Source: Planctomycetota bacterium
GTDB lineage: Bacteria; Planctomycetota; Phycisphaerae; Phycisphaerales; SM1A02
Assembly (NCBI GenBank): GCA_022562915.1
Contig: JADFOJ010000004.1
Span: 1-64,000 of the forward strand
Direction of reading: 5' to 3'
DNA length: 64,000 nt
Part shown: one piece after another, positions 44,066 through 60,232 of the stretch
How positions within the stretch are numbered: position 1 is the stretch's first letter
How the letters are laid out: each line of letters starts with the position of its first letter
Notes under the pieces: model-generated
The model's database searches: none
What the model saw: the letters and a program-made list of their open reading frames with translations, nothing else
Told to the model about the DNA's origin: nothing
Program-made: the position numbers and the translations under genes

Positions 44066-44911
44066 ATGTGGAGCTTCCAGAAGCCGGTCTGCGCGGTTGT
44101 TGTGTACCTGGCTCTGTGCCTGGCTTGGCCGGCCCAGGCCGGACCGGACTTCATCGAGGGCATGTGCAACGGCGAGGCGGGGTCCGACCCGTCGAGCGCC
44201 TGCCGCGTCTCCGGCGGTGGAGGTGGGCTCGTGATGTCGATCACCGGCAAGATCAACGGCGGGGGCGCCGGCCTCGGGGCGCCGGACTTCGAGGACATGT
44301 ACGTCATCCTCATTACGGACCCCGAGGGCTTCAGCGCGACCACGGTGGGGCCCGCCACGGGCTTCGACACCCAGCTGTGGCTGTTCCGCGCCGACGAGTT
44401 GGATCCCACCTCGGACGGCCTGGGCCTGCTCGCCAACGACGACAGCTCGGCGGCGGACGACGCGTCGATGATGGGGTCGATGTCCGATGACGGGACGGGT
44501 ATCGCCATCACGATGCCGGGGCTCTACTACCTGGCAGTCAGTGGCGGCGCAGGCCTGGGAGTCCCCGGAGACGGCAGGTTCCCCGTCGCGGGCGGGCTTC
44601 CCATCTTCGACCTGATATCGCCAACCGAAGTCTCAGGCCCGGACGGAGCGGGCGGCATGTCCGTGGTCGACGGCTGGGCTGGAAAAGGCGAACTCGGCAG
44701 CTACACCATCGCCATTGAGGGTGTGACCTTTCTCGAGCCGCTGTGCCCCTGGGACTGCGAGGCGACTGTCGACGGAGGCGTCGGGATCACCGACTTCCTG
44801 GCACTGCTCGGTACGTGGGCGGTTGTCGGCGCGTCGTGCGACTTTGACGGTGGCGGCGTCGGGATCACCGATTTCCTGGAACTGCTGGGCCACTGGGGTC
44901 CGTGTCCGTAG
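44066..44911 (+). CDS. Secreted protein with dockerin-like tail, paralogue of next gene
   Basis: The 281-residue product has a signal peptide (VVVYLALCLAWPAQAG) followed by GPDFIEGMC. A beta-rich domain (GFDTQLWLFRADELDPTSDGLGLLANDDSSAADDASMMGSMSDDGTG; GLYYLAVSGGAGLGVPGDGRFPVAGG) makes up the middle. It ends in two dockerin/EF-hand-like repeats (GGVGITDFLALLGTWA and GGGVGITDFLELLGHWG). A GGGAGGA motif precedes the ATG. The next gene encodes the same central domain with a different C-terminal tail. Confidence 0.85.
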   Translation: MWSFQKPVCAVVVYLALCLAWPAQAGPDFIEGMCNGEAGSDPSSACRVSGGGGGLVMSITGKINGGGAGLGAPDFEDMYVILITDPEGFSATTVGPATGFDTQLWLFRADELDPTSDGLGLLANDDSSAADDASMMGSMSDDGTGIAITMPGLYYLAVSGGAGLGVPGDGRFPVAGGLPIFDLISPTEVSGPDGAGGMSVVDGWAGKGELGSYTIAIEGVTFLEPLCPWDCEATVDGGVGITDFLALLGTWAVVGASCDFDGGGVGITDFLELLGHWGPCP

Positions 44912-44937
44912 AACGAAGTACCTGAGGAGGTCAAGAC

Positions 44938-45648
44938 GTGAGGATTGTGAAAGAAGCGATCTGTGTGGGTGCCCTGCTCGTTGCCGTAACGCCGGTGGAC
45001 GCCGGGCCTGACTTCATCGAGGGCATGTGTAGCGGCGGCAGCGCAGGGTCGTTCCCGGGAACCGCGTGCGGCGTCACCGGCGTCGGGAATCTGTCCACGA
45101 TCACCGGCGGCACCTCCATGCCGTTCGGGCCGGGACTGCTGGACCTGGAGGACATGTACATCATCCGCATCACCGACGCGAGCATCTTCAGCGCCAGCAC
45201 ACTGGACGCCCTCACGACCTTCGACACGCAGTTGTGGCTGTTCCGCGTCGATGAGTTTGATCCCCTGCTGGACGGCGTGGGCCTGCTCGCCAACAACGAC
45301 ATCTCGGCAATGGAAACCGCGTCGATGCTGGGGCCGATGTCGACGGACGGGACGGTCGTCATCACGGAAGGGATCTACTACCTGGCGATCAGCGGCGGCG
45401 CCGGCGCGGGCTTCCCCGGACGATTTCCCGTCGCGGCCGGCGCTGCGATGTTCGACTTCATGACGCCGACCGATATCGTCGGTCCGTTGGACCCGTTTGC
45501 GATTATCGACGACTGGTCCGGAGACGGGGCGGTCGGCACCTATGTCATCCACTTCGAGGGCGTCAGCTTCATCCCGGCACCCGGGGCGTTCTGGGTGCTT
45601 GCCCTGCTCGCGGTAAACACTCGTCGGCGACGCCGGGCTACGCCGTAG
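44938..45648 (+). CDS. Secreted protein with PEP-CTERM-like sorting tail, paralogue of previous gene
   Basis: The 236-residue protein starts at GTG. It shares GPDFIEGMC, FDTQLWLFRVDEFDPLLDGVGLLANND and GAGFPGRFPVAAG with the preceding gene, so the two arose by duplication. Instead of dockerin-like repeats it ends in FIPAPGAFWVLALLAVNTRRRRR, which is a PAPG, hydrophobic helix, arginine cluster arrangement of the PEP-CTERM type that targets proteins to the cell envelope. It overlaps the convergent kinase gene by 11 bases. Confidence 0.85.
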   Translation: MRIVKEAICVGALLVAVTPVDAGPDFIEGMCSGGSAGSFPGTACGVTGVGNLSTITGGTSMPFGPGLLDLEDMYIIRITDASIFSASTLDALTTFDTQLWLFRVDEFDPLLDGVGLLANNDISAMETASMLGPMSTDGTVVITEGIYYLAISGGAGAGFPGRFPVAAGAAMFDFMTPTDIVGPLDPFAIIDDWSGDGAVGTYVIHFEGVSFIPAPGAFWVLALLAVNTRRRRRATP

Positions 45649-48427
45649 CGGCCGCCTGGAGAGTGCGATACCGTTGGGCCTCGTCTGATCGACCGAGCCG
45701 CTCGCACACGTCGATGAGTTGCTGCAGGGCCCGCTTGGTTCTCTCGTCCGCTGACCCGTACTCGGCGTCGAGCACCGGGTAGCTCCTAACGAGGACCGTC
45801 TCTGCCTCATCGAGACGATCGAGTTGCAGCAGGCACTCGCCCAGAAGGCTCCCCGTGTGCGCGGTCCGACCATCCTGGTCGGTGAACCTGGCGCGGCGGA
45901 TCGCAAGGGCCTCGCGCAACAGCGGCTCCGCCTGGGCCGGTGCGCTGCGCTGTAGATGAAGACCGCCCAGCTCATGAAGGCTGATCGCCAGCCTTCGGTC
46001 GTCGGGCTCCAACACCTCGCGCTTCATCGCCACGGCCGATTCCAGCAGCGTCCGTGCCTCGTCCAGCTCCCCCTTCTTCAAGAGGCACTTGGCGAGGTTG
46101 CTCATGGCGCCGGCCAGCGCCGGGCTCGGAGCATCGGGCTGCAGGCTGTCGACGACCTCCCTGAAGTACCCTTCCGCCTCGTCGAGCTTGCCCTGCTCGC
46201 GCAGACAGGTCGCGAGGTTGTTCTGGATGTAGACCCAGCTTATCCCTGACCCCCACATAGTGAGACCGTCGCGGTGGTCCTCCGGCAGGAGTTCGCGGAT
46301 GTGCAGCGCCTCGCGAAAGAACCGTTCCGCTTCCTCGCGTTTGTCCATCCGGTCCAGGCACCCGGCCAGATGGTTCGTCGTTTCCGCCACGGCGAGCTGG
46401 GCGTCCGGATCGTCCTGCGCGCGCTTGACCAGTTCCTGCCGGATCGCCAGCGCGCGCCGGTAAAGCTCCGCCGCCTGCTCGTACTGCATCAAGTCCCACT
46501 TCACCGCAGCCAGCTCGTGGACGCTTTGCGCGAGCTCCGCCGGGGGTGCGCCCATCGCCTCCCGAAGGCGCATCGCCCGCTCGAGGTGCGGCTCTCCCTT
46601 GTCGGGCCAGCCGAGCTTCTTGTAGGTCCATCCCAGCGTCGCATGAAGCGACGCCTTGATCTCGGGCCGGTCATCGAACCTCGTCTCCAGGTCCGCCGCG
46701 GCATCGTCGAGCACGTCGACCACCTTCACGCCGGGGCCCTTGTTCGACCACGGGTTCGCCGCGGCGAGCATGTCCTGAAGAAAGACGTTCATCTCCCTCG
46801 CCTTGTCAGCCGCGATCTCAGCCCGTTCGCGCAGCATGCCCTCACGGAGGCCCCACACGGTCGCCACCGTCAGCAGCACGGCGAGCACGGCGCTTGCCGC
46901 GGCCCCCACGCGAATGATGTTGCGGCGCCGGCGAGCCCGTCGTCGCTGCGGCAGTGTCTCGAGCTTCTTGGCAAGCCCCTGGGCGCTGCCCAACCGCTGC
47001 TGCTCGTCGCCCTCGACACAGGCGGCGATGTCCTCACGCAGCAGGGGATAGCGCACGTCGCGCTCCCACCCCTGCGCGAGCGGTCGATCGAGGTCGCCGA
47101 CGACCATCTGGTACAGGAGCACTCCGAGCGCGTAGACGTCACCGAGCACCGTAAAGGGCTTGCCGGCAAGAAGCTCCGGGGGCGCGTACATGCGGGTTCC
47201 GGTCGTGATGTCGTCATCGATCCCGTCCGTGAACCCCGCGACCGTAATATTGCCCTGGGCCAGCCGGCCCTTGTCCGTGAGGGTGCCGATGCCGAAGTCC
47301 GAGAGCCGCGGCCGGGCCACCCCGTCCTCATCCTTGTAGATCAGGATATTGGCGGGCTTGATGTCCTTGTGCAGGATGCCGACCGAATGCGCCGCCGCCG
47401 CCGCCCGCGCCGTTCGAGCGACCAGCTCGACGCGCGCCTCCAGCGGAACCTCGGCGATGCCGTTCAGCGTCTCGGCCCACTCCTGGAGGCTGCCGCAGGT
47501 GGTGAACTCGCTCTCCAGAAAGAACGGAGGCTCGTCCAACTGCACCTCGTAGAGCCGCGCGATGTCCGGTCGTTCGCCGAGAGCCTCCCGCAGGACGCGG
47601 AACAGTGTCATCTCCCGCTTGAGTGAGCGCAGGCGATCCACGTCGTAGCAGAACTTGAAGACCCGCCGGGTCCTTGTCCGCTTGTGGCCGGCCAGCCAGA
47701 CCTCACCGAAACCTCCCTCGCCGAGCTTTCGCTCCAGGACCCAGCCCTTGCGGCCGGGAACCGGCAGGCTGGAGGCAGGCCGCCACCCGAGCGTCTCCTC
47801 CTCCTCGGCCGCCACGGACCGCCGCGCCTTTTGACCGTCGGGGGGAACACTCAGCGGCGCGATGCCGACGGCCCCGACCTCGAAGATCTCCATCGCGTCG
47901 TCGGCACCCTGGAAGAGATAGCGGCCGTGCGCCATCCACTCGAACGGACGCCCGTCGCCCTCGTGGCGAACGTACTGCCGGGCGTTGTCAAAGGCCGCCC
48001 GGGTCATCAGGATCTGGCCGGGCAAGCCCAGGCCCATCACTCGCGCGGCGATGTCCACCGCCAACCCGGACACCTTCGGCAGCCCGGTCGTTTCGAGCTC
48101 GAGCTCCGATACCTCGCCCAGGTGAATGCCAATCCGCACCTGGATCGGGTCGGCCCCCCACGGCTCGGACCAGATCGCGTGCTGGAACCGCAGGGCCACC
48201 ATGACGGCCTCGCGTGTCGTGGTGAACCGTGCCAGGAAGCCGTCGCCGGTGTCCTTGAGAATCTCCGCGCTCTCCGCGGCGCCCATCACCTCGCGAAACA
48301 GCTCGTCGTGCCGACCGATCAGCCGGGCACCCTCGGCATCACCGAGCCGGGTCTTGAGGTCCACCGACCGCACGATGTCGGTGAACAACAGAACCATCAG
48401 GCGCGAGGGCGCGACCTTACCGCTCAC
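45638..48427 (-). CDS. Nucleotide cyclase-Ser/Thr kinase-TPR signalling protein
   Basis: The 929-residue protein is made of three modules. Residues 10-150 form a class III cyclase homology domain (VLLFTDIVRSVDLKTRLGD; LKDTGDGFLARF; RIGIHLGEVS). Residues 230-490 form a kinase with GEGGFGEVWLA, HKDIKPANIL and SDFGIGTL, and a single TM segment (VGAAASAVLAVLLTVATVWGL) follows. Residues 560-925 are TPR repeats (LGWTYKKLGWPDKGEPHLERAM and similar). It should perceive an outside signal through the TPR part. The start is GTG at 48427 with GGAG seven bases upstream. It is divergent from a GAF-SpoIIE phosphatase. Confidence 0.9.
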   Translation of the reverse strand: MSGKVAPSRLMVLLFTDIVRSVDLKTRLGDAEGARLIGRHDELFREVMGAAESAEILKDTGDGFLARFTTTREAVMVALRFQHAIWSEPWGADPIQVRIGIHLGEVSELELETTGLPKVSGLAVDIAARVMGLGLPGQILMTRAAFDNARQYVRHEGDGRPFEWMAHGRYLFQGADDAMEIFEVGAVGIAPLSVPPDGQKARRSVAAEEEETLGWRPASSLPVPGRKGWVLERKLGEGGFGEVWLAGHKRTRTRRVFKFCYDVDRLRSLKREMTLFRVLREALGERPDIARLYEVQLDEPPFFLESEFTTCGSLQEWAETLNGIAEVPLEARVELVARTARAAAAAHSVGILHKDIKPANILIYKDEDGVARPRLSDFGIGTLTDKGRLAQGNITVAGFTDGIDDDITTGTRMYAPPELLAGKPFTVLGDVYALGVLLYQMVVGDLDRPLAQGWERDVRYPLLREDIAACVEGDEQQRLGSAQGLAKKLETLPQRRRARRRRNIIRVGAAASAVLAVLLTVATVWGLREGMLRERAEIAADKAREMNVFLQDMLAAANPWSNKGPGVKVVDVLDDAAADLETRFDDRPEIKASLHATLGWTYKKLGWPDKGEPHLERAMRLREAMGAPPAELAQSVHELAAVKWDLMQYEQAAELYRRALAIRQELVKRAQDDPDAQLAVAETTNHLAGCLDRMDKREEAERFFREALHIRELLPEDHRDGLTMWGSGISWVYIQNNLATCLREQGKLDEAEGYFREVVDSLQPDAPSPALAGAMSNLAKCLLKKGELDEARTLLESAVAMKREVLEPDDRRLAISLHELGGLHLQRSAPAQAEPLLREALAIRRARFTDQDGRTAHTGSLLGECLLQLDRLDEAETVLVRSYPVLDAEYGSADERTKRALQQLIDVCERLGRSDEAQRYRTLQAAATA

Positions 48428-48536: not shown

Positions 48537-49862
48537 ATGCCCGATCCCGGCGGCGAGCTTCATGACGACGTGCTGCGGCGAATGCTCGAGGTCGCCCGGC
48601 ACTTGAGCGGCTCGGCGGACCTCCGGCAGATCCTTTCGGTCATCATCAATGCCATGCGGGACACGCTGGCCGCGGAACGGGCAACGGTCTTCGAGTACGA
48701 CGAGGCCCGGGGGCAGCTCGTGGCCACGGTGGCCCACGGCCTCGATCCGGCAGCCCTCTCCGGCCTCCAGGAGATCCGGATCCCCGCCGACCGCGGGCTG
48801 GCCGGACAATGCGCTCAACAGCGATCGATCATCAATGTGCCCGACGCCTATGCCGACGACCGCTTCGACCGGTCCATCGATGCCCGCACCGGCTACCGCA
48901 CCCGATCGATCCTGACCGTGCCGCTGCTCGACGACGATCAATCGTTGATCGGCGTCACGCAGGTGCTCAACAAGTTCGGGGGTCCCTTCGATGACCGCGA
49001 CGAAGAAATCGCGCTCGGCCTCGGATCGCTCGCGGCGGTGGCCATCAGGCGCGGCCGGCTGCTCGAAGATCGGCTCGTGCGCGAAAAGCTCCAGCGCGAT
49101 CTGCAACTGGCCCGCCAGATCCAGCAGAGCACCTTCCCGAAGCAGCTGCCCCGGCTCGACGGGTTCGGGCTGGCCGCCTGGAGCGAGCCTGCGGAAGAGA
49201 CCGGGGGCGACGTCTTTGACGTGATCGGATTTCGGGCCGGGCGCGCGATCGCGGGCGGCGACGAGGCGGACCGTGCCCTGCTGCTCCTCGCCGACGCCAC
49301 CGGGCACGGCGTCGGACCCGCCCTGGCCGTAACCCAGTTGCGCGCGATGCTGCGCATGGCAGCGCGGATCGGCGCCGACCTGCCCACGGTCGCCAGGCAC
49401 ATCAACCACCAGCTGTGCGACGACCTTCCCACCGGCAGGTTCATCACCGCCTGGATGGGCGAGCTGAACGTCGCGGATCTCTCGCTGCAGAGCTTCAGCG
49501 CCGGCCAGGGACCTCTACTGCAGTTCGACGCCGCCCGGGATGCGTTCGAGCAGTTGCACGGGGATACTCTGCCCTTCGGCGTGGAGCGCGATCTCGACAT
49601 CACCATGGCACCACCCATTCACCTCGGCGAAGGCGACATCTTCGCCGTGGTCTCCGACGGGATATTCGAAGCCACCGACGATCGTGGCCGGGAGTTCTCG
49701 GCAGGCCGGGCCATGGACGTCATTCACGCCCATCGCGGCGAGTCAGCCCAGGCCATTCTCGACGGGCTCAAAGGGGCGGTGGCCGCGTTCTCCGGCGACA
49801 CCGCGGCGGCCGACGATCGCACCGCGATCATCATCAAGCGGGAGGCCCCGCCGATCTCCTGA
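48537..49862 (+). CDS. GAF-domain SpoIIE-type protein phosphatase
   Basis: The 441-residue protein has a GAF sensor (residues 25-175, with AERATVFEYDEARGQLVATVAHGL and SILTVPLLDDDQSLIGVTQVLNKFGGPFDDRDEEIALGLGSLAAVAI), a coiled segment RDLQLARQIQQSTFPKQLP, and a PP2C/SpoIIE phosphatase (about 195-435) with EETGGDVFDVIG, LLLLADATGHGVGPALAVTQLRAM, GDIFAVVSDGIFEATD and AADDRTAIIIKRE. Such enzymes dephosphorylate anti-sigma-factor antagonists in partner-switching networks. No antagonist gene is next to it. The divergent cyclase-kinase suggests a paired signalling unit. Confidence 0.92.
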   Translation: MPDPGGELHDDVLRRMLEVARHLSGSADLRQILSVIINAMRDTLAAERATVFEYDEARGQLVATVAHGLDPAALSGLQEIRIPADRGLAGQCAQQRSIINVPDAYADDRFDRSIDARTGYRTRSILTVPLLDDDQSLIGVTQVLNKFGGPFDDRDEEIALGLGSLAAVAIRRGRLLEDRLVREKLQRDLQLARQIQQSTFPKQLPRLDGFGLAAWSEPAEETGGDVFDVIGFRAGRAIAGGDEADRALLLLADATGHGVGPALAVTQLRAMLRMAARIGADLPTVARHINHQLCDDLPTGRFITAWMGELNVADLSLQSFSAGQGPLLQFDAARDAFEQLHGDTLPFGVERDLDITMAPPIHLGEGDIFAVVSDGIFEATDDRGREFSAGRAMDVIHAHRGESAQAILDGLKGAVAAFSGDTAAADDRTAIIIKREAPPIS

Positions 49863-49946: not shown

Positions 49947-51965
49947 ATGGAACAGCGCATCGTGTCGCCGGGAAGGCTGTCTCGGCACCGGCGGGTGATG
50001 TCGGTCGGGATCGGAGTCCTGGCCGTCGCGTGGGGCGGGCCCGGGCTCTTCGGCCCGGCGGTCTCCCCGGCCCGGGCGGCCGATGTCGAGCCGGACCTCC
50101 AGGACATCGCGGACCGGGCACACGAGCAATTGCTCCTGGGGGAGCGGTTCCCATCCGCGACCACGTGCGCCGCGTGCCACCCGAAACACTACCGCGAATG
50201 GTCCGTGTCCCAGCACGCGTACGCCCAGATGAGCCCGATCTTCAACGCGATGCACGGAAGGATTCTGCAACTCACCAACGGTACGAACGGAGACTTCTGC
50301 ATTCGCTGCCACACGCCGGTCGGGATGATCCTCAAAGAGCCGGAGTTCATGAGCAACATCGACCGGCACCCGACGTCGCGCGAAGGCGTCACGTGCATCG
50401 TCTGCCACCGGGTGAACAAGGCCTACGGCAAGATCAGCGGCCGGCTGGCGATCGTCGAGGGTGACCTCACCCAGACCATCTACGGGCCTTCGGGCGACAA
50501 CACGGCACTCGATGACGCCATCGCCGATGTCGGGCTCGTCACCGATCCGAACAGGGGCGGCCTCCAGGTTCACGGCCGGATCGACAAGTTCTTCCAGATC
50601 ACCACGTCAGCACAGTGCGGAACGTGCCACGACGTGACGCTGGTCAACGGCTTCCGCCTGGAAGAGGCGTTCAGCGAATTCAAGAGCTCACCCGCCAGCA
50701 GGAAAGGCATCTCCTGCCAGGATTGCCACATGGGCATGGACCCCGGTCGGATCCTGGCCGAGCGCAGCGACCCGGAATTCGATCGAAAGAACTACGACTT
50801 CGGTCCGGCCGCAACGGTCCGGGGCTACGACACCCCCGCTCGCAAATTGACAAACCACATGTTCGTCGGGCCTGACTATTCAGTGCTGACGCCGGCCTTG
50901 TTCCCGCTGCACAGGTTGATCAAGGAAGAGAGCGAGAAGGACGACGTCTCGGCTGACGGGTACACCATTCGAGAATGGTTGAGGTTCAAATGGAAGGCGG
51001 GCTGGGGCACCGATGACTTCGAGGACAAGGTGCCCGACGACTACATCGACACGGCATGGGACGAGTCCGACACGGACCGGCCCGCCCAATACAGGTGGCA
51101 GGAGCCGTGGGACTCGCCCGACGACCGGTACGATGCCCGGGAGGTCATCCAGGAAAACCTGGTGCTTCTCAAGGACATGGAACAGCAGCGCCTGAGACTG
51201 CTACAGAACGGGTACAAACTCAGCGACGTCGTGACGGAGCGAGCGGACCCCGGGGGCATTCGTTTTCGCGTCCAGGTCAGCAGCGGCACCGACGGCCACA
51301 ACGTCCCGACGGGCTTCGACGCCGAGCGGCTCGTCTGGCTGTTCGTGCAGGTGATGGACGCCGACGGCACCGTCGTCATGCAGTCCGGCGACCTGGACCC
51401 CAACGGGGATCTCCGCGACCTGCACTCGTTGTACGTCCACAACCACGAGCTGCCGCTGGACAGCCAACTCTTCAGTCTGCAGTCGAGGTTCGTCGTCCGC
51501 ATGGTCCGGGGCGGTGAGCGCGAGCAGGTGCTCGCGGTGAACTACTCGCCGAGCCCGCTGCCGTTCCTGCGCCCCGAGCGTCGCTCGAGCGTGCTGCTGG
51601 GCAGACCCGGCGGGGCCCGCAAGCACAAGCAGGGCATCGAGCCCAACGGTCACCGCTGGGCACAGTACTCCGTCAAGAAGAAACAGATGACCGGACCGGG
51701 CCCGTACCGGGCCGTGATCCAGCTCAAGGCGGCGATGGTGCCCGTGAACCTGATCAACGAGATTCGCCGCGTCGGGTTCGACTACAACCTGAGCGCCCGC
51801 GACGTGGCCCAGGTACTCGTGCACGGGCACGTCATCGACACGGGCGACGAGTTCCAGCGCGTCATCTGGAATCCTGATTCCGAGCTGCCGGCGGACAACC
51901 AGGTGGTCGGCCACCAGGTGCTGTGGGAGCGCGAGGTCATCTTCGACGTAACCGGCGATGAATAA
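49947..51965 (+). CDS. Pentahaem c-type cytochrome
   Basis: The 672-residue exported protein has a signal segment (MSVGIGVLAVAWGGPGLFGPAVSPARA) and five CxxCH motifs in the N-terminal half (CAACH, CIRCH, CIVCH, CGTCH, CQDCH, about residues 70-265). A long C-terminal region without haem motifs follows. The haem spacing places it among the multihaem cytochrome family near cytochrome c554/NrfA-like proteins. The ATG at 49947 has AAGGGA upstream and was preferred over an in-frame ATG at 49869. It is the first gene of the seven-gene electron-transfer operon; its stop overlaps the porin gene by eight bases. Confidence 0.9.
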   Translation: MEQRIVSPGRLSRHRRVMSVGIGVLAVAWGGPGLFGPAVSPARAADVEPDLQDIADRAHEQLLLGERFPSATTCAACHPKHYREWSVSQHAYAQMSPIFNAMHGRILQLTNGTNGDFCIRCHTPVGMILKEPEFMSNIDRHPTSREGVTCIVCHRVNKAYGKISGRLAIVEGDLTQTIYGPSGDNTALDDAIADVGLVTDPNRGGLQVHGRIDKFFQITTSAQCGTCHDVTLVNGFRLEEAFSEFKSSPASRKGISCQDCHMGMDPGRILAERSDPEFDRKNYDFGPAATVRGYDTPARKLTNHMFVGPDYSVLTPALFPLHRLIKEESEKDDVSADGYTIREWLRFKWKAGWGTDDFEDKVPDDYIDTAWDESDTDRPAQYRWQEPWDSPDDRYDAREVIQENLVLLKDMEQQRLRLLQNGYKLSDVVTERADPGGIRFRVQVSSGTDGHNVPTGFDAERLVWLFVQVMDADGTVVMQSGDLDPNGDLRDLHSLYVHNHELPLDSQLFSLQSRFVVRMVRGGEREQVLAVNYSPSPLPFLRPERRSSVLLGRPGGARKHKQGIEPNGHRWAQYSVKKKQMTGPGPYRAVIQLKAAMVPVNLINEIRRVGFDYNLSARDVAQVLVHGHVIDTGDEFQRVIWNPDSELPADNQVVGHQVLWEREVIFDVTGDE

Positions 51966-53346
51966 CGGCACACGTGGCCTTGCGGCAGCGACCCTGCTGG
52001 CAGTGGCGGCGCCCGCGGTCGGCGAGCCGCCCCAGGACGGGGAGCACACCAGCCGGATCTCCGACGAGCCGGCGCCGCGGATTAAACCCGAAGACATCCC
52101 GTCCCGGCCCAGCCTGCTGCTGGAGCTGGGCAATCCGTTTCTCGGGTCCGGCCCGATCGACCCGGGTTTCGAGCTTCCGGGAGGGGCCGTGGCCCAACCG
52201 TCGCTGTGGGTGTTCGGTACGTATCGGTCCGCCGTGCAGGTCTTCAACCAGGGCCGTGACACACCGAACCTCAGTGAGTGGGCGAATCGGCTGGACCTGT
52301 TCGCCAACCTTCAACTGTCCGGGACCGAGCGCGTGCTGTTCGGCATTCGACCGCTCGACGAGGACGGCACGTTCTCCGGCTACCAGTTCAGCCCCGACGG
52401 CACCGACGGTTCGGTCGACGGGTTCAATTTCGACGTGACCACGCTGTTCTTCGAAGGTGACATCGGTGAGATGATTCCCGACGCGGACCCGAAGGATTTC
52501 GCCTCGCTCGACTGGGGCATCTCCGTCGGACGCCAGCCGCTGTTCTACCAGGAGGGCATGCTGATCGACGAGGACATCATCGATGCGGTCGGCATCACTC
52601 GCAACACGCTGTTGCCCGCCGGCGGCAGCGATCTGCAACTGACCTTCGTCTACGGCTGGGGCAGGATCAGCCGCAACAACAACGTCGAGCTCTCCGGCCA
52701 GAGCCTGTTCGGGTTCTTTTCCGCGTGGGACTTCCCCAGGACGACGATCAACGCCGACGTCGTCTATGTCCATGACGGCAACGGCAACACCGACGGGGTC
52801 TTCTTCGGCCTCAGCGGTGTGCAGCGGATCGGGCACTTCAACACGTCGTTCCGCGTCCTGGGCTCCCATGCTACCGAGCGGGAGACGGCTGCCGTGAGCG
52901 ACGGCTACCTCCTGTTCACCGAGCTTTCCTGGACGCCGCCGTGGACCGAGAACCATGCGTACGTCAACGCCTATTGGGGCATCGAGGACTTCTCGTCGGC
53001 GGCCCGCGGGGAAGCCTCGGGCGGACCGCTCGGCCGCGTCGGCATCATGTTCGCCGCGGTGGGCCTCGGCCGGTACGGAGCGCCGCTGGGCAATCGTCCG
53101 AACGACTCGGTGGGCGGTGCCATCGGGCACCAGTGGTTCTTCGACGATACGCGTAAGCAGTTCATCGTCGAGCTGGGAAGCCGATACAGCACGAGCAGTC
53201 AGGGGCTGACCGCGGTCGCGCTGGGAGGCCGTTACCAGCAGGCGATGGGCCGGCACTGGGTGCTGCAACTGGATGCCTTCGGGTCGCTGGTGCACGACGG
53301 CGACGAGGGCTACGGCGCCCGCGCGGAGATCCGGTACGAGTTCTGA
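51958..53346 (+). CDS. Predicted outer-membrane porin-like protein
   Basis: The 462-residue exported protein has a signal peptide (MNNGTRGLAAATLLAVAAPAVG). Alternating amphipathic strands run through the rest (RLDLFANLQLSGTERVLFGI; DLQLTFVYGWGRISRNNNVELSG; TELSWTPPWTENHAYVNAYWG) and it ends in a C-terminal aromatic residue (ARAEIRYEF), as outer-membrane beta-barrels do. It begins inside the end of the cytochrome gene. Porin-cytochrome pairing is the plan of outer-membrane electron conduits, so it may sheath a multihaem cytochrome. The sequence is not recognisable as MtrB. Confidence 0.75.
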   Translation: MNNGTRGLAAATLLAVAAPAVGEPPQDGEHTSRISDEPAPRIKPEDIPSRPSLLLELGNPFLGSGPIDPGFELPGGAVAQPSLWVFGTYRSAVQVFNQGRDTPNLSEWANRLDLFANLQLSGTERVLFGIRPLDEDGTFSGYQFSPDGTDGSVDGFNFDVTTLFFEGDIGEMIPDADPKDFASLDWGISVGRQPLFYQEGMLIDEDIIDAVGITRNTLLPAGGSDLQLTFVYGWGRISRNNNVELSGQSLFGFFSAWDFPRTTINADVVYVHDGNGNTDGVFFGLSGVQRIGHFNTSFRVLGSHATERETAAVSDGYLLFTELSWTPPWTENHAYVNAYWGIEDFSSAARGEASGGPLGRVGIMFAAVGLGRYGAPLGNRPNDSVGGAIGHQWFFDDTRKQFIVELGSRYSTSSQGLTAVALGGRYQQAMGRHWVLQLDAFGSLVHDGDEGYGARAEIRYEF

Positions 53347-53354
53347 CGTCCATC

Positions 53355-54653
53355 ATGGTTGACGCACCGACCAACGCGGCAGAGTTCATGACCTCGCCCC
53401 TCGTCCAGGAGAACCTGTGGATCGTGGGAGCCGTGATCATCGGCGCGATCGGCGCGCAGGCTCTCTGGCTCACGGTGGACTTTTTTCGCCGGGCCGCTCA
53501 CGAGAACGCCCAACGCGCGCGGATTGCCGAGCTTCTCGAATTGCGGCTGGCGGCGGCGCGCACCCATCGAGCCGAGCAGGAGAAGAAATCCTTCTCCTGG
53601 GCGGGCTGGCGAAAGTTCGAGGTGAAACGCAGGGAGTTCGCGGATCCCTCCAGCCAGGCGTGCTCGTTCTACCTGGCGCCGCACGACGGCAAACCGATAC
53701 CGGCGTTCGAGCCGGGGCAGTTCCTGACGTTTCAGCTCGCGATTCCCGGTCAGGCCAAGCCGGCGGTTCGCTGTTATTCACTCTCGGATTCACCGCGATC
53801 GGACCACTATCGCGTGACGATCAAGCGGCTCCCGGCGAGGGGCGATGCGCCGCCGGGGCTCGCCTCGAACTTCTTTCACGATCACATCGGCGAAGGCGAT
53901 CTCGTGGACGTCAGGGCGCCGAGCGGGCGATTCTTCCTGGACATGACACACGACACCCCCGTCGTGCTCCTGGCCGCGGGTGTCGGCATCACGCCCGTGC
54001 TGTGCATGCTCAACGCAATCGTCGACAGCGGCTCATCGCGAGAAACCTGGTTCCTGTTCGGCGTCCGCCATGGCGACGAGCACATCATGCGAGAGCACCT
54101 CGACCGCGTGGCCCGCGAACACGAGAACGTTCATCTGCACGTGTGCTACAGCAATCCTCGAGACGGCGTCGACGTCCGGGGCACGGACTATCACCACAGC
54201 GGGTATGTGAGCACCGAGCTGCTTCGCGAGCTGCTGCCGTCGAGCAACTACGATTTCTACATGTGCGGGCCGCCGCCGATGATGGACTCGCTGACGGAGG
54301 GCCTGCTGGAGTGGGGCGTTCCCGAAGAACGCGTGCACTTCGAGAAATTCGGCCCCGCCCCCGGCAAGCCGAAACCGAAGCCGGACACGTCAGCCAAAGG
54401 GCCGCCGGTCACCTTCAAGAAGTCCGGCAGGACGATCCCGTGGGACGCCGCCTTCGAGCACGTCTGGGACTTCGCGGCCGCCAACGGCGTGGAGATCGAC
54501 AGCGGCTGCCTCGAAGGCAACTGCGGCAGTTGCATGACGGCGATCCTCTCCGGGGAGGTCACCTATGCCGACGAACCATCGTTTCCGTACGAGAAGGGCA
54601 CATGCCTGACGTGCTCGTGTGTCCCGAACGGTCCGTTGGAGTTGGATGCCTGA
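53355..54653 (+). CDS. Membrane-anchored FAD/NAD(P)H-dependent reductase with 2Fe-2S domain
   Basis: The 432-residue protein starts with a membrane anchor (ENLWIVGAVIIGAIGAQALWLTVDFF). The FAD-binding part has RCYSLSDSPRSDHYRVTIKR, and the NAD-binding strand PVVLLAAGVGITPVLCMLNAIV and the CGPPPMMDSL pocket motif complete a ferredoxin-NADP reductase fold. The C terminus is a 2Fe-2S plant-type ferredoxin with DSGCLEGNCGSC and a late TCLTC. The layout resembles the Hcr/NqrF/MMO-reductase class that passes NAD(P)H electrons to a partner. It starts nine bases after the porin. Confidence 0.92.
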   Translation: MVDAPTNAAEFMTSPLVQENLWIVGAVIIGAIGAQALWLTVDFFRRAAHENAQRARIAELLELRLAAARTHRAEQEKKSFSWAGWRKFEVKRREFADPSSQACSFYLAPHDGKPIPAFEPGQFLTFQLAIPGQAKPAVRCYSLSDSPRSDHYRVTIKRLPARGDAPPGLASNFFHDHIGEGDLVDVRAPSGRFFLDMTHDTPVVLLAAGVGITPVLCMLNAIVDSGSSRETWFLFGVRHGDEHIMREHLDRVAREHENVHLHVCYSNPRDGVDVRGTDYHHSGYVSTELLRELLPSSNYDFYMCGPPPMMDSLTEGLLEWGVPEERVHFEKFGPAPGKPKPKPDTSAKGPPVTFKKSGRTIPWDAAFEHVWDFAAANGVEIDSGCLEGNCGSCMTAILSGEVTYADEPSFPYEKGTCLTCSCVPNGPLELDA

Positions 54654-54727
54654 GCTTTGCGAACGGTCACTGAACGACTATATTGACTGAGTGGTTGTGG
54701 GACCCCGGGGTGTGGAAGGAACTCTCG

Positions 54728-55780
54728 ATGCATCACAAGAAGGTCACCGGACGTACCGCCGTCCTGGCATCGCTCGCCGCGCTCATGGTGATGAGCGTCG
54801 TCGCCGCCGTGCTGCCGGCCGAAGACGACGTCGAGGGTACCTGGGCGAAGATCATGGGACCCATCGAGACTGACAACAGCTGTGACGCCTGTCATGGGTC
54901 GGAGGTGGGTGCCTGGAAGTTGACGCATCATTTCGCGACCTTCAGGAACCGCCACAAGGACAAACGCGCCAAGGAGATCCGTGCGAACCTGGGCGTCAAG
55001 CGGATGAAGGACCCGGCCCCGGAGAACATGTGCCTCGAGTGCCACTACACGATGGGGACTAAGAGCAACAAATTCAGGCCCAGATGGGGCGTCTCCTGCG
55101 AGTCGTGCCACGGACCCGCGCAGGATTGGGTCAACATCCACTATAAGGTCGGCGGGACCGCCGACGGCAAGGTCATGAAGTGGGGTGACGGAAAGAACGA
55201 ACCGTCCGCGCAACGCGCCGCACGCCTCGACGCGGCCGCGGCGGCGGGCATGATCCATTCGGAGATGATCTACGAGATCGCGGTCAACTGCTTCGGATGT
55301 CACACCGTTCCGAACGAAGAGCTGGTGAACAAGGGCAAGCACAAGGCCGGCAGCGACTTCGACCTGGTTGCCTGGAGCCAGGGGGAGATCCGTCACAACT
55401 TCGTCAGCTCCGCCGGTGCACCTGACAATCCGACGAATCGGCCGGCGACGAAGCAACAGTTGCGGCGCCTTTACGTCGTCGGCGCCATGGTGGACCTGGA
55501 GATCAGCCTCCGCAACCTCGCCGCCGCGCAGGACATGGAAGGTGCGTATCACGCCGCCATGGCCGCGCGGGTCGGCCGATGCAAAGACAAGATCCAGCAG
55601 ATCCTCGCGGCGGTCGAGATCCCCGAACTGGCGGCGGTCATGAAGTCCGACGATCCGGCGACGCCCGACCAGGTCGGCGCCGCAGCCAGGACATTCGTGA
55701 GAACCCACGACGGATCCACGCTCGGCGCGATCGACGGCATGATCCCGACGGCGTACATGGGAAGCGCCTACAAGGAGTAG
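54728..55780 (+). CDS. Tetrahaem c-type cytochrome (c554-like)
   Basis: The 350-residue exported protein has a signal peptide (AVLASLAALMVMSVVAAVLPA) and four CxxCH motifs (CDACH, CLECH, CESCH, CFGCH) within the first 200 residues. The spacing CDACHGSEVGAWKLTHHFAT resembles the cytochrome c554 family that accepts electrons in nitrogen-cycle pathways. The C-terminal half is helical and lacks haem. The ATG at 54728 follows GGAAGGA. It sits between the reductase and the cyclic-nucleotide/ferredoxin gene. Confidence 0.88.
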   Translation: MHHKKVTGRTAVLASLAALMVMSVVAAVLPAEDDVEGTWAKIMGPIETDNSCDACHGSEVGAWKLTHHFATFRNRHKDKRAKEIRANLGVKRMKDPAPENMCLECHYTMGTKSNKFRPRWGVSCESCHGPAQDWVNIHYKVGGTADGKVMKWGDGKNEPSAQRAARLDAAAAAGMIHSEMIYEIAVNCFGCHTVPNEELVNKGKHKAGSDFDLVAWSQGEIRHNFVSSAGAPDNPTNRPATKQQLRRLYVVGAMVDLEISLRNLAAAQDMEGAYHAAMAARVGRCKDKIQQILAAVEIPELAAVMKSDDPATPDQVGAAARTFVRTHDGSTLGAIDGMIPTAYMGSAYKE

Positions 55781-55788
55781 ACGCGTCT

Positions 55789-57573
55789 GTGGTAGAAACC
55801 GAGGAATTCTCAAGACCCCAGCGGTGGGACGTCCCGTTCAGTCTCGACCTGCCTGATCCCGCTGAGCGCCGCGCCATGACGGACGAGGACGTGGCGCGGC
55901 TGCTGGCGATCGAGCCGTTCTCCGCGATGGACCCCCGGAATTTCCCGGAGCGCGTCGGGCTCCGGGGAATCCTGCGGAACGACACGCGGATCCGCCGTTA
56001 CCGCAACGGCACCGTCGTGGTCCGCCAGGGCGACTACGGCAATTCGGCGTTCCTGATCCTCGCCGGGTCCGTGCGGGTCATCCTGGAGGGACTCGACCCG
56101 AAGCTGGTCGGCCGCAGCGAGCGCCGCCGCCGGAGCGTGATCGGTTCCGTCGCCCGCCTGATCACCAACCCCCGATCGCCCGAATCGCGCGACGCCAGGC
56201 GGTACCCGCAGATGCAAAGGCCGGCGGACGACCAATCGCCCGATGCCGAACGGGCATTCGTCCAGGATGTCAATATCCTGAGGGACTTTCCCGCGGCGTT
56301 CGAACAGACCACCAACGACGTGATGACCACGGGTGAGCTCTTCGGTGAGCTCGCCGCGCTGGGCAGGATCCCCAGGTCGGCCACGGTCGTTGCCGACGGC
56401 GAGTGCGAGTTGCTGGAGATCCGCTGGCAGGGTCTGCGGGACCTGCGGAAGTATGACGCCGCGCTGCGGCAGCACACCGACGACCGGTTCCGCCGGTTCG
56501 GCCTGTCCGCCGCGCTACGGGCGTCGCCGCTGCTGGCGGGGCTGAGTACCGAACTCCTGGAGCAGGTGACGAGTGCGGCGGAATTCGAGACGTACGGATC
56601 CTTCGACTGGTACGGCACCTTTCAACAGTTGCGCAAGCGAGATGTCGACCCTCTCTCTGCAGAGCCCGTCATCGCCGAGCAGGGGCATTACCCCAATGGC
56701 TTGGTGTTGATCCGAGCCGGCTTCGCCCGGGTGAGCCGGAAGCTGGGTCATGGCGAGCAGACATTCAATTACCTCGGCAAGGGCGACGTCTACGGCCTGG
56801 CCGAGCTGGTGCACAACGCCGGGGCCGCGCAGCCGGTGCCGCTGGCGTCCACGCTCCGCGCCGTCGGGTACGTCGATGTCGTCCGCATCCCCACCAGGAC
56901 CTTCGAGCAGGTGATCCTGCCCAACCTGCCGGCCGGAATGCGCCCGCCCGCCGCACTGCCCGTGGACCCGTCGGGTGGTGGGCCGACACCGTCCCGTCCT
57001 GACCGTCCTGGGGGTCATGAGGGTCATGGCATCGACCCCCCCATGCTGGAGTTCCTCGTCGAGCACCGTTTCATCAACGGCACCGCGACGATGATGATCG
57101 ACATGGATCGCTGCACTCGCTGCGACGACTGCGTGCGCGCGTGCGCCAGCGGCCACGACAACAACCCGCGGTTCATCCGGCACGGCCCGACCATCGGTCA
57201 CCACATGATCGCCAACGCGTGCATGCACTGCGCCGACCCGGTGTGCATGATCGGGTGCCCCACCGGCGCGATCCACCGCAGCGAGGAAAGTGGCGAGGTC
57301 GTCATCAACGATCTGACCTGCATCGGCTGCGGCACGTGCGCCGCCAGTTGCCCCTACGACAACATCCAGATGGTTGAGATTCGCGATCGATCGAGCAACG
57401 ACGCCATCATGATCGACCCCGCCCAGGGCAAGGCCATCGTCAAGGCGACCAAGTGCGACCTGTGCATCGACCATCACGGCGGCCCGGCGTGCGAACGGGC
57501 GTGCCCGCACGATGCCCTGAAGCGCGTCGACATGCGCGATCTGGACTCGCTCGCACGGTGGCTCCGGCGGTGA
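55789..57573 (+). CDS. Cyclic-nucleotide-binding domains fused to a four-cluster ferredoxin
   Basis: The 594-residue protein carries two cyclic-nucleotide-binding-type domains (about residues 60-190 with RRYRNGTVVVRQGDYGNSAFLILAGSVRVIL, and about 270-390 with YPNGLVLIRAGFARVSRK). The C-terminal part (440-590) is a ferredoxin with sixteen cysteines for four [4Fe-4S] clusters (CTRCDDCVRAC, CMHCADPVCMIGC, CIGCGTCAASC, CDLCIDHHGGPACERAC), like HybA/NrfC/DmsB electron-carrier subunits. The fusion suggests that electron flow is gated by a small molecule. The start is GTG at 55789. Confidence 0.88.
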   Translation: MVETEEFSRPQRWDVPFSLDLPDPAERRAMTDEDVARLLAIEPFSAMDPRNFPERVGLRGILRNDTRIRRYRNGTVVVRQGDYGNSAFLILAGSVRVILEGLDPKLVGRSERRRRSVIGSVARLITNPRSPESRDARRYPQMQRPADDQSPDAERAFVQDVNILRDFPAAFEQTTNDVMTTGELFGELAALGRIPRSATVVADGECELLEIRWQGLRDLRKYDAALRQHTDDRFRRFGLSAALRASPLLAGLSTELLEQVTSAAEFETYGSFDWYGTFQQLRKRDVDPLSAEPVIAEQGHYPNGLVLIRAGFARVSRKLGHGEQTFNYLGKGDVYGLAELVHNAGAAQPVPLASTLRAVGYVDVVRIPTRTFEQVILPNLPAGMRPPAALPVDPSGGGPTPSRPDRPGGHEGHGIDPPMLEFLVEHRFINGTATMMIDMDRCTRCDDCVRACASGHDNNPRFIRHGPTIGHHMIANACMHCADPVCMIGCPTGAIHRSEESGEVVINDLTCIGCGTCAASCPYDNIQMVEIRDRSSNDAIMIDPAQGKAIVKATKCDLCIDHHGGPACERACPHDALKRVDMRDLDSLARWLRR

Positions 57574-58394
57574 TGACATTCGCCGCCCGTCGATGGTTCG
57601 CGATCGTCCTGACCGTCGTGGTCGCCGTGGCCGGCTCGGCGGTGCTGCTCTCCCGTTCCATGTCGCTGCGCGGGACCGCGTGGGAATCGGGTTGGGTCCT
57701 GCTGGCGGTCCTGCTCTTCCTGGCCTCGTACAACCTGCGCAAGAAATTGACGTACCCGCCGCTGCTCAGCTCGGCCACCTGGCTGCAACTGCACGTCTAT
57801 GTCGGGGTCCTGTCCGTCATCCTGTTCGGGTGGCACATCGGCTGGCGGATACCCAACGGGCTGCTCGAAACAGCGATCGCCGTGGTCTTCGTGTGCGTCG
57901 CCGCCAGCGGCGTCGCCGGGCTTGCGTTGAGCCGGATGATCCCCGGCCGGCTGACGGTCCGGGGCGAGGAGGTGCTCTTTGAGCGCATACCCGTGTACCG
58001 CCGTCAACTTCGCGAGCGGGCGGAGGCGGTGATCGTGGACTCGGCGCAGGAGAGCGGGACGGACACGCTGTCGGACTTCTATGCGCGCCGGCTGGCGGAC
58101 TTCTTCCACGGACCGCGTCACGCCTGGCGACACGTCGTCCAGTCGACGCGCCCGGTGACCGAATTGTTGCACGAGTTGCGCTCGCTGGAGAGGTATCTCA
58201 GCGATGGCGAACGGGAGACGCTGCGAGAGCTGACCGAGCTCGTTCAGGCCAAGGACAATCTGGACTACCACCGCACCATGCAGGGCATGCTCAAGGGCTG
58301 GCTCTTCGTCCATATTCCGCTGACGGGCGTGCTGCTGGTGCTCGTCGGGGCCCACGTGGTCCTCGTCCATGCCTTCGCGGGAGCGAGTGCGTGA
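57573..58394 (+). CDS. Cytochrome b-like membrane protein
   Basis: The 273-residue membrane protein has about five helices. Candidate haem-ligand histidines lie in LQLHVYVGVLSVILFGWHIGWRIP and in LFVHIPLTGVLLVLVGAHVVLVHAF. This placement (two histidines per helix, facing pairs) is typical of dihaem cytochrome b subunits that exchange electrons with quinones. Its ATG overlaps the ferredoxin stop by one base (TGATG) and its own stop overlaps the decahaem gene by four, so all are cotranslated. Confidence 0.82.
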   Translation: MTFAARRWFAIVLTVVVAVAGSAVLLSRSMSLRGTAWESGWVLLAVLLFLASYNLRKKLTYPPLLSSATWLQLHVYVGVLSVILFGWHIGWRIPNGLLETAIAVVFVCVAASGVAGLALSRMIPGRLTVRGEEVLFERIPVYRRQLRERAEAVIVDSAQESGTDTLSDFYARRLADFFHGPRHAWRHVVQSTRPVTELLHELRSLERYLSDGERETLRELTELVQAKDNLDYHRTMQGMLKGWLFVHIPLTGVLLVLVGAHVVLVHAFAGASA

Positions 58395-60232
58395 ACATCC
58401 AGCTTCAGCAGACCGGACACCGGGAGAGCCGGTACGAACGGCCCAACCAGACCTGGGTGTGCGGTTGGGCGGCGGATGGCCGCCCGTGCACGCTGGGCCC
58501 CGACCGCCGGGGCCGCTGCCCCGCCCGCGCCGAGGCCGAGTGCGCGCCGCGCCGAGACGGCGACCGTTACCACTGCACGCGGCTGGACGCGTTCGGCGGA
58601 GCGTGCGAGCCCGGCCCGTTGCCTGACGGATCGTGCTGCGGGCCCGAACCGGAGCACCCGGTGTGCCAGCCCCGGCTGAGCATCCGGGCCCTGCGCGGGC
58701 GGCTGAACCTCGCCGTCTTCATCGGCGCCATCGGCGCCCTGCTCGTGGGGATCGCGGGGCCGTGGCGCCTGGAGGTCGTCTCGCCGGGCGAGCTTGCCTC
58801 GGTCCACCGGGCCTTCGAGAGACCGAGCGACGCCCCCAACGACTGCGCCGTCTGCCACGTGGCCGCCGAGCAGGGGCCGCTCGGCTGGATCAGCGGTGCG
58901 ATCGGGGATCACGGCAGTCCGGACGACAACCGCGCATGCCTGCGGTGCCACTTCGCCGACACCACCGCCCGGACCCATGCGTTTTCCGTTCACGGTCTTC
59001 CCGCCGACGTGCTCGACGCGGCCCGCGCCCCGCTGGCGTGCGCCACCTGCCACCGCGAGCACCGCGGCCGCGATCACGACCTCGCGTTCATGGACGACAC
59101 GCGCTGCCAGGTCTGTCACAAGGATCAGTTCAAGAGCTTCAGCTCCGGTCACCCCGAATTCCGGACCGAGCAGCGGCACGCCCAGGGCATTGCCTTCGAT
59201 CATACCACCCACCAGGAGCACTTCGGCAAGATGCCGTTCGACTGTCTCCAGTGTCACGAGCCCGACGCCCGCGGGCGTTCCATGGTGCTCAAGCCCTTCG
59301 ACGTTTCTTGCGTCGGCTGTCACTCCGGCGGAAGCAGCGATCACCACGGTGACAAGATCACGAACATGGGCACCAACCTGGTCATACAACTGGACACCGA
59401 GGAGAACCTGCCGCCATTCATGCGTCTGCTGCTCGCCGGTGACGATGACGCCGTCGACTTCCTGGTCGAGCTCGAGGACGTGGATGTCGTCGACGAGCTG
59501 GACGACGAGAACAAGAATGCGTTCGCAACGGCTTTCAAACGCCTGGTCGACGAACTCCTGGACGGCGATCCCAAGCCGCGGATCGCCCGCGCTCTCGGCG
59601 TCCCCGCGACGTCTCCAGCCGTCGCGGCGCTCGCCGATGAGTTGTCCTCGGCAACCGGGTCAGTCCTGGCGTTCAAGGAACGCTGGTTGCCCGGACCCGA
59701 CGCCGCGTCAATCGACCGGGACGGGCCGATGCCGAACGAGACCGGCTGGTATCACGATCCGGACCAGGTCGCGATCGGCTACCGCGTCACCACGCATGCC
59801 GATCGCTTCGTGAAAGCCTGGGTGGATGCGCTGGCGACCCCAGGTGACGCGCGGCCCGCCATCGTTGTTGACGAGAGCGACGGCGATCGCCAGGCGCTTC
59901 GCGAGAGTTTTACCGAGGAACTGAGAGACAGCTTCGCCACCTGCCTGCGGTGCCACGAGGCCGGTCGCTGGGACCCGGCCGATCGCGAGGTCTCGGCGCT
60001 CGGAGACCGGAGGCCCTTTGAGCACGGCACGCATCTGCGCCTCTTCGGCGCAACGACGGAGAGCTGCGATGCGTGCCACCGGCTCTCGGAGCCGTCGGGC
60101 AAGGGGCCCGGGGGCCGGTCCCGCCATGGATTCCTCGAATACGCCAGGAGCGACTGCGCGACTTGTCACCGGCCGGGCCGGGCCGCCGACAGTTGCCTCA
60201 CCTGCCACAGGTATCACGTTCTCCGGCCGTAA
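58391..60232 (+). CDS. Decahaem c-type cytochrome with cytoplasmic Cys-rich domain
   Basis: The 613-residue protein starts at GTG. Residues 1-100 are a Cys-rich segment without CxxCH (WVCGWAADGRPC, CTRLDAFGGACEPGPLPDGSCCGPEPEHPVCQP), likely cytoplasmic. One TM helix (LNLAVFIGAIGALLVGIAGPW, residues 106-125) follows. Ten CxxCH motifs lie beyond residue 150: CAVCH, CLRCH, CATCH, CQVCH, CLQCH, CVGCH, CLRCH, CDACH, CATCH and CLTCH. The haem part should face the periplasm. Last gene of the operon. It resembles a tethered electron-transfer relay between a cytoplasmic partner and an exported chain. Confidence 0.9.
   Translation: MNIQLQQTGHRESRYERPNQTWVCGWAADGRPCTLGPDRRGRCPARAEAECAPRRDGDRYHCTRLDAFGGACEPGPLPDGSCCGPEPEHPVCQPRLSIRALRGRLNLAVFIGAIGALLVGIAGPWRLEVVSPGELASVHRAFERPSDAPNDCAVCHVAAEQGPLGWISGAIGDHGSPDDNRACLRCHFADTTARTHAFSVHGLPADVLDAARAPLACATCHREHRGRDHDLAFMDDTRCQVCHKDQFKSFSSGHPEFRTEQRHAQGIAFDHTTHQEHFGKMPFDCLQCHEPDARGRSMVLKPFDVSCVGCHSGGSSDHHGDKITNMGTNLVIQLDTEENLPPFMRLLLAGDDDAVDFLVELEDVDVVDELDDENKNAFATAFKRLVDELLDGDPKPRIARALGVPATSPAVAALADELSSATGSVLAFKERWLPGPDAASIDRDGPMPNETGWYHDPDQVAIGYRVTTHADRFVKAWVDALATPGDARPAIVVDESDGDRQALRESFTEELRDSFATCLRCHEAGRWDPADREVSALGDRRPFEHGTHLRLFGATTESCDACHRLSEPSGKGPGGRSRHGFLEYARSDCATCHRPGRAADSCLTCHRYHVLRP

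Follow-up and report, generated by a model that had tools for sequence, protein, structure and literature searches.

A planctomycete PCC4-type porin-cytochrome operon, its proposed export of electrons from NAD(P)H and a possible cyclic-nucleotide link

The seven genes of the operon

The window analyzed here, the first 64,000 nucleotides of contig JADFOJ010000004.1 from a Planctomycetota bacterium (assembly GCA_022562915.1; 3.59 Mb, 93% complete), contains seven plus-strand genes at positions 49947-60232, called g1 to g7 below, which a first-pass annotation had singled out as a porin-cytochrome operon possibly serving extracellular electron transfer (EET). We consider them here in relation to the putative porin-cytochrome cluster PCC4 subgroup II, defined by He et al. 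in 2017 with Planctomycetes among its hosts (PMC5566968). All seven open reading frames are present and as tightly packed as annotated: g1 and g2 overlap by 8 bp, gaps of 8, 74 and 8 bp follow between g2 and g3, g3 and g4, and g4 and g5, and the g5/g6 and g6/g7 junctions each overlap by 4 bp. The G+C content of the operon is ordinary (0.662 versus 0.672, standard deviation 0.012), and promoter and terminator scans gave scores no better than those of shuffled sequence.

The penta-, tetra- and decahaem cytochromes of the first-pass annotation are borne out by 5, 4 and 10 CXXCH motifs in g1, g4 and g7, respectively, far above the shuffle means of 0.004, 0.009 and 0.07. The predicted periplasmic pentahaem cytochrome c g1 (49947..51965), the likely partner of the porin, joins a C554-like haem domain (PF13435, E=2.5e-10), remotely similar to pentahaem cytochrome c552 (5ze8), to a long C-terminal domain; its five proximal histidines and six others are near-invariant among 33 homologues. 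Similarly, g4 (54728..55780, start ATG at 54728) is a c554-like tetrahaem cytochrome, predicted to be periplasmic (PF13435, E=1.4e-12), with four invariant histidines beyond those of its CXXCH motifs. The decahaem g7 (58391..60232) has a single transmembrane anchor at residues 101-119, followed by predicted periplasmic haem domains (PF14522, PF22113). Its N-terminal ~100 residues (window 58391-58700), which precede the anchor, contain nine conserved cysteines (C24-C92), belong to no family found by Pfam search and are missing from the shorter g7 relatives at five other loci (L024-L028; L and G numbers denote our loci and genomes). This Cys-rich region is probably cytoplasmic; it might coordinate Zn or hold an Fe-S cluster and serve as a docking site for g5. 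A strict DNA pattern for clustered CXXCH motifs returned zero matches in the organism's own genome, the pattern being too strict. As for the predicted outer-membrane beta-barrel g2 (51958..53346), a Pfam search gave no family; its signal-peptide-like N-terminus, together with a C-terminal Phe in 30/32 homologues, agrees with the porin assignment.

On the cytoplasmic side, g3 (53355..54653) is a membrane-anchored NAD(P)H:FAD reductase with a C-terminal 2Fe-2S domain. It matches PF00175, PF00970 and PF00111 as well as flavohaemoprotein reductase (3ozu, E=6e-56), has a hydrophobic segment at residues 16-34, and its 2Fe-2S cysteines are kept in relatives. The predicted cytoplasmic protein g5 (55789..57573, start GTG at 55789) had been recognized as a four-cluster ferredoxin, and its 16 cysteines indeed form four 4Fe-4S motifs that are invariant or nearly so among 92 relatives (PF13247, E=2.7e-10; PF12838 and others). 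What had been missed are the cyclic-nucleotide (cNMP)-binding domains in front of these motifs (PF00027, E=3.2e-27), whose phosphate-binding cassette (pattern FGE..A......R[ST]A), here FGELAALGRIPRSA, is almost canonical. A relaxed form of the cassette is found in 91/92 relatives of g5; a strict PROSITE-like version was rejected as a family rule, failing as it does in part of the family.

The gene between this ferredoxin and the decahaem cytochrome, g6 (57570..58394), encodes a predicted inner-membrane di-haem b-type protein with five transmembrane helices, in keeping with the cytochrome b-like protein annotated earlier. Helices 3 and 5 carry W71-H75-H89 and W244-H248-H262, respectively, and helix 4 carries SGVAG at 113-117. 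The four motif histidines are near-invariant across 88 homologues, of which 84 contain two WX3HX13H motifs. According to a positive-inside reading of the topology, H75 and H248 would lie on the cytoplasmic side and H89 and H262 on the periplasmic side, a placement that would stack two b haems across the membrane. By the same reading, an insert of roughly 110 residues between helices 4 and 5 would be cytoplasmic and is a likely docking site for g5. Neither Pfam at E<=0.01 (ferric reductase PF01794 included) nor NCBIfam yielded a match for g6, and its sequence matched nothing in the PDB. An AlphaFold2 model built from a 73-sequence alignment also shows five helices (pLDDT, the per-residue confidence score, 92; pTM, the predicted template-modelling score, 0.84), and found no PDB structure at E<=0.001. 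An earlier model from 13 sequences (pLDDT 74) was discarded, its Foldseek matches being meaningless.

A conserved gene set with exchangeable parts

The idea of a porin-cytochrome operon spanning both membranes is strengthened by its conservation across phyla. A g6 search covering 198 genomes of the class, followed by a look at the DNA around the matches, turned up the unchanged order g1-g7 in three other genomes. The g5 alignment, used to scan the GTDB contig collection, gave 236 relatives, the best 80 of which were kept for locus mapping. Relatives of the gene set occur in at least eight phyla, and all seven genes lie within one fetched stretch at 27 loci, from Planctomycetota, Pseudomonadota, Nitrospinota, Verrucomicrobiota (Opitutales) and candidate phyla. 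These loci fall into four arrangements: g1-g7 as in the window (Planctomycetota, gamma- and alphaproteobacterial bins, Ferruginivarius sediminum, Nitrospinota, Latescibacterota and Zixibacteria), g4-g5-g6-g7 followed by g1-g2-g3 (several alphaproteobacterial bins), g3-g5-g6-g7 followed by g1-g2-g4 (Hwanghaeella), and g3-g2-g1 divergent from g4-g5-g6-g7 (Opitutaceae). The isolates Hwanghaeella grinnelliae Gri0909 and Ferruginivarius sediminum WD2A32 each have the complete set of seven. Such constant content despite shuffled order is good evidence of joint function. In addition, g5, g6 and g7 are adjacent in 81/82 loci where all three were called, most of these loci having been found via g5.

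Co-occurrence points the same way. Across 392 genomes of the phylum, with g1 scored by strong matches only, g6 is present in 43/50 genomes with g1 versus 37/342 without it (p = 8e-28). There are also genomes, G060 and Candidatus Uabimicrobium, in which g1 is present but unlinked to the module; the former has two adjacent g1 copies (G060:C21:128187-133592) apart from its g3-g7 cluster. In the tree, two gamma-proteobacterial bins (L030, L032) are nested within the window's clade (SH-aLRT branch support 99), which suggests horizontal transfer; we go no further than a suggestion because both are metagenome bins and the G+C content of the operon is ordinary. Two further loci, L085 and L075, come from metagenome bins titled Klebsiella pneumoniae and Akkermansia muciniphila, respectively; their modules group with those of Verrucomicrobia in the tree, and the species titles are probably wrong.

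Outside these complete loci, the inner half of the system occurs with other outer halves. In most Verrucomicrobia of the Pedosphaera/Limisphaerales type, g3-g5-g6-g7 are accompanied by a divergent g4 with three haems and, in many cases, lie near a different barrel of ~750 aa, an HbpS-like protein and a decahaem protein bearing LVIVD repeats. The HbpS-like protein and the barrel are near g3-g5-g6-g7 at L051, L052, L066, L067, L089, L095 and L109, at most of these together with the LVIVD cytochrome. Relatives of this barrel, of the LVIVD cytochrome or of both adjoin g5-g6 in planctomycete loci as well (L024, L027, L028). One inner module combined with at least two unrelated outer modules is more readily reconciled with electron export than with a single enzyme for a soluble substrate.

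The NAD(P)H side is exchangeable, too. Four loci lack the FNR-type g3 and instead have, adjoining g5-g6, an NADH dehydrogenase of the NDH-2 type that carries, at its C-terminus, a cNMP-binding domain whose cassette is intact (L025:13010-14656, L026:5138-6790, L027:10812-12455, L028:4852-6501). These dehydrogenases are a second redox enzyme bearing the type of regulatory domain seen in g5. At another locus (L029:10789-14903), a NuoE-NuoF fusion lies adjacent to a g5 homologue that is itself fused to a NuoG-like 2Fe-2S/4Fe-4S N-terminus. The recurrence of three unrelated NAD(P)H-oxidizing flavoproteins with the same ferredoxin-cytochrome b pair indicates NAD(P)H as the electron source. This comparison, which was not part of the first-pass annotation, appears to be new relative to the 2017 description of PCC4 by He et al. 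(PMC5566968).

Electron path, rival readings and a possible gate

We infer that the operon performs EET and, with a probability of roughly 0.58, that this PCC4 subgroup II system moves electrons out of the cell, with NAD(P)H in the cytoplasm as donor and an extracellular acceptor. In the path we propose, NAD(P)H would reduce the FAD and 2Fe-2S centers of g3, which would pass electrons to the four 4Fe-4S clusters of g5 and on to g6, where two stacked b haems would conduct them across the inner membrane, much as in ferric reductases and NADPH oxidases. The anchored decahaem g7 would then hand them to the periplasmic tetrahaem g4, and g4 to g1 in or at the g2 barrel, from where they would reach the acceptor. 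The genome has one haem-copper oxidase; aerobic respiration is thus likely, and the operon would add a further route for electrons.

The flow might also run inward: Fe(II) or Mn(II) outside the cell would donate electrons to the porin and cytochromes, which would deliver them via g6 to the quinone pool. We regard this as unlikely, even though He et al. (PMC5566968) found PCC4 in zetaproteobacterial iron oxidizers and drinking-water-filter bacteria and drew the route as leading from a donor outside the cell to quinone. The operon also resembles MtoAB and PioAB in encoding no extracellular cytochrome. However, a route from Fe(II) to quinone offers no evident place for an FAD/2Fe-2S reductase, replaceable by NDH-2 or NuoEF, and a four-cluster ferredoxin, and many of the hosts are planctomycetes or verrucomicrobia, which are not known as iron oxidizers. 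Energetics argue in the same direction: electrons that pass from cytoplasmic NADH through b haems to the periplasm follow the membrane potential and dissipate it, as happens in NADPH oxidases, whereas transfer from Fe(II) to NAD+ against this potential is strongly uphill. We therefore prefer outward flow.

Outward transfer could instead be fed by quinol at g6, leaving g3 and g5 as a side entry or sensor. Bis-histidine b-haem proteins are often quinone-reactive, the published model assumes quinone exchange, and subgroup I clusters are described without an Fe-S gene (PMC5566968). Indeed, one of our loci, L023, consists of g1-g2-g4-g6-g7 and has neither g3 nor g5. Its g6, however, has lost the first histidine and the locus may be a derived form; together with the near-constant g5-g6-g7 adjacency, with its bias toward loci found via g5, this makes quinol feeding look rather improbable to us.

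The first-pass annotation had also stated that no terminal reductase is included, and a catalytic-subunit gene, its own proposed refuter, was sought in and beside the operon and not found; the neighbors are a phosphatase gene and a vanadium-chloroperoxidase-like gene. All four molybdopterin-oxidoreductase matches in the genome are on other contigs, and matches to catalytic families stayed below cut-off (octahaem tetrathionate reductase, 16.7 bits versus 375). Counting near-invariant histidines outside CXXCH, there are six for the five haems of g1, four for the four of g4 and nine for the ten of g7, that is, a candidate distal ligand for nearly every haem, so that no open catalytic haem is evident, about as expected of bis-histidine conduits. 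Hence, with at least one spare conserved histidine per haem in g1 and g4 and only sub-cutoff family matches, we consider it very doubtful that there is no extracellular transfer and that g1 or another cytochrome reduces a soluble substrate admitted by the barrel, for all the remote likeness of the g1 haem region to 5ze8 and its large uncharacterized C-terminal domain.

To return to the proposed export from NAD(P)H, its ferredoxin may be regulated. A neighboring gene overlooked in the first-pass annotation (45638..48427, minus strand) combines a class III cyclase domain (PF00211), a Ser/Thr kinase domain (PF00069) and TPRs, and lies ~1.5 kb upstream of the operon and ~7.4 kb from g5. Across the whole genome, this gene is the only match to PF00211 and g5 the only match to PF00027. 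An orthologue (45% over 937 aa) is found upstream of the same seven genes in a distant planctomycete (L071). More generally, a class III cyclase lies <=10 kb from g6 in 12/25 genomes with a good g6 versus 0.32 expected, or, counted by genus, in 5/16 versus 0.26 (p = 8e-6). The sensor parts of these cyclases differ (CHASE2, FHA, kinase-TPR), leaving the catalytic domain as the recurring element, and two metal-binding Asp residues are retained in all nine domains compared.

From this association, the 45638-48427 gene is a possible source of a cyclic nucleotide to which the cNMP domains of g5 would respond. We propose such gating of g5 by its neighboring cyclase tentatively; a gate would be useful because the pathway would consume NAD(P)H and run down the membrane potential. 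More doubtful is the fuller picture of an electron valve, in which the signal of a dedicated cyclase would act by binding directly to the ferredoxin rather than to a transcription factor, and would thereby open or close NAD(P)H-driven electron export, as apparently the only class III cyclase/cNMP-domain signaling of this genome. The link of g5 to cyclic nucleotides seems previously unreported: the main text of He et al. (PMC5566968) does not bring up cyclic nucleotides, and our literature search found no paper on a cNMP-domain ferredoxin in EET and none on Hwanghaeella cytochromes.

Several points weigh against this reading, as regards both path and gate. Compared with the ten haems of MtrA, the five of g1 may be too few to cross the outer membrane unaided. 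The modeled fold of g6 resembles cytochrome b561 (4o6y, Z 7.5) and the NADPH oxidase SpNOX (8qt6, Z 6.7) only weakly, within the noise for helical proteins, and is no more than consistent with such a relationship. The literature search turned up no experiment on any PCC4, and, in line with the proposal of He et al., electrons might pass between g6 and quinone. Concerning the gate, the window's cyclase has Asp where the transition-state Asn is expected and could have lost or changed its activity. Roughly half of the genomes examined show no cyclase close to the module, an intact cassette in a cNMP fold is no guarantee of cNMP binding, and genome-wide counts come from an assembly that is only 93% complete.

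On the strand of the operon, 84 bp ahead of g1, lies a gene (48537..49862) for a GAF and SpoIIE/PP2C-type phosphatase (PF01590, PF07228); it is possibly co-transcribed with the operon and is not a conserved neighbor. Nor is the vanadium-chloroperoxidase-like gene 166 bp downstream (60399-62489), whose product has a dockerin-type C-terminus. Further away are two tandem paralogous secreted proteins, one ending dockerin-like and the other PEP-CTERM-like (44066-45648), and a class A RNase P RNA on the minus strand, cut off by the window end (1-250).

With the same gene set present over at least eight phyla, culturable species included, an inner half that pairs with interchangeable NAD(P)H-oxidizing enzymes and a ferredoxin possibly under cyclic-nucleotide control, a vague EET candidate becomes a concrete test case.

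Comparison with known systems

Judged by its sequence, the operon is a PCC4 subgroup II cluster and shows every published feature that could be tested (PMC5566968). It has a porin, a barrel with signal and C-terminal Phe, and cytochromes with 4, 5 and 10 CXXCH, and likewise lacks an extracellular multihaem cytochrome. g6 shares the five transmembrane helices, the two WX3HX13H motifs on helices 3 and 5 and the SGXXG motif on helix 4; He et al. reported these motifs and their likeness to FRD/NOX and bc1 cytochrome b. The Fe-S protein with pfam13247 directly upstream of the inner-membrane protein corresponds to g5, with its 4-bp overlap with g6, and the redox gene upstream of the tetrahaem gene to g3 before g4. 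Different from our loci, replacements by NDH-2 or NuoEF are not part of the description in the consulted part of that paper. A literature search found no later paper that uses the name PCC4 together with PCC3.

The first-pass annotation had called the operon "not the Mtr or Omc plan". This holds for Mtr, since the MtrA/DmsE-type model TIGR03508 (29.7 bits versus 192.2) and the MtrC/OmcA-type model TIGR03507 (15.9 versus 209.3) are far below cut-off; the plan itself had, however, already been published as PCC4 subgroup II. MtrCAB, MtoAB and PioAB likewise place a barrel and multihaem cytochromes across the outer membrane. Their barrel partner is an MtrA-type decahaem protein and their entry point a CymA-type quinol oxidation, whereas here the partner is pentahaem and an NAD(P)H reductase, a ferredoxin and a di-haem b protein take the place of CymA. 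Verrucomicrobial porin-octahaem clusters (PMC5615132) also combine a porin with multihaem cytochromes and are proposed to perform EET to humics; their periplasmic partner has eight haems, and g5, g6 and g7 are not described in the available part of that paper.

Ferric reductases and NADPH oxidases (PF01794) differ in that g6 has no Pfam match and has a long, predicted cytoplasmic insert between helices 4 and 5, while the flavoprotein of the operon is a separate polypeptide with a ferredoxin in between and would deliver electrons to c haems, not to O2. What the operon has in common with them are the HX13H pairs on helices 3 and 5, the flavoprotein input from NAD(P)H and an expected electron flow from the cytoplasm to the outside.

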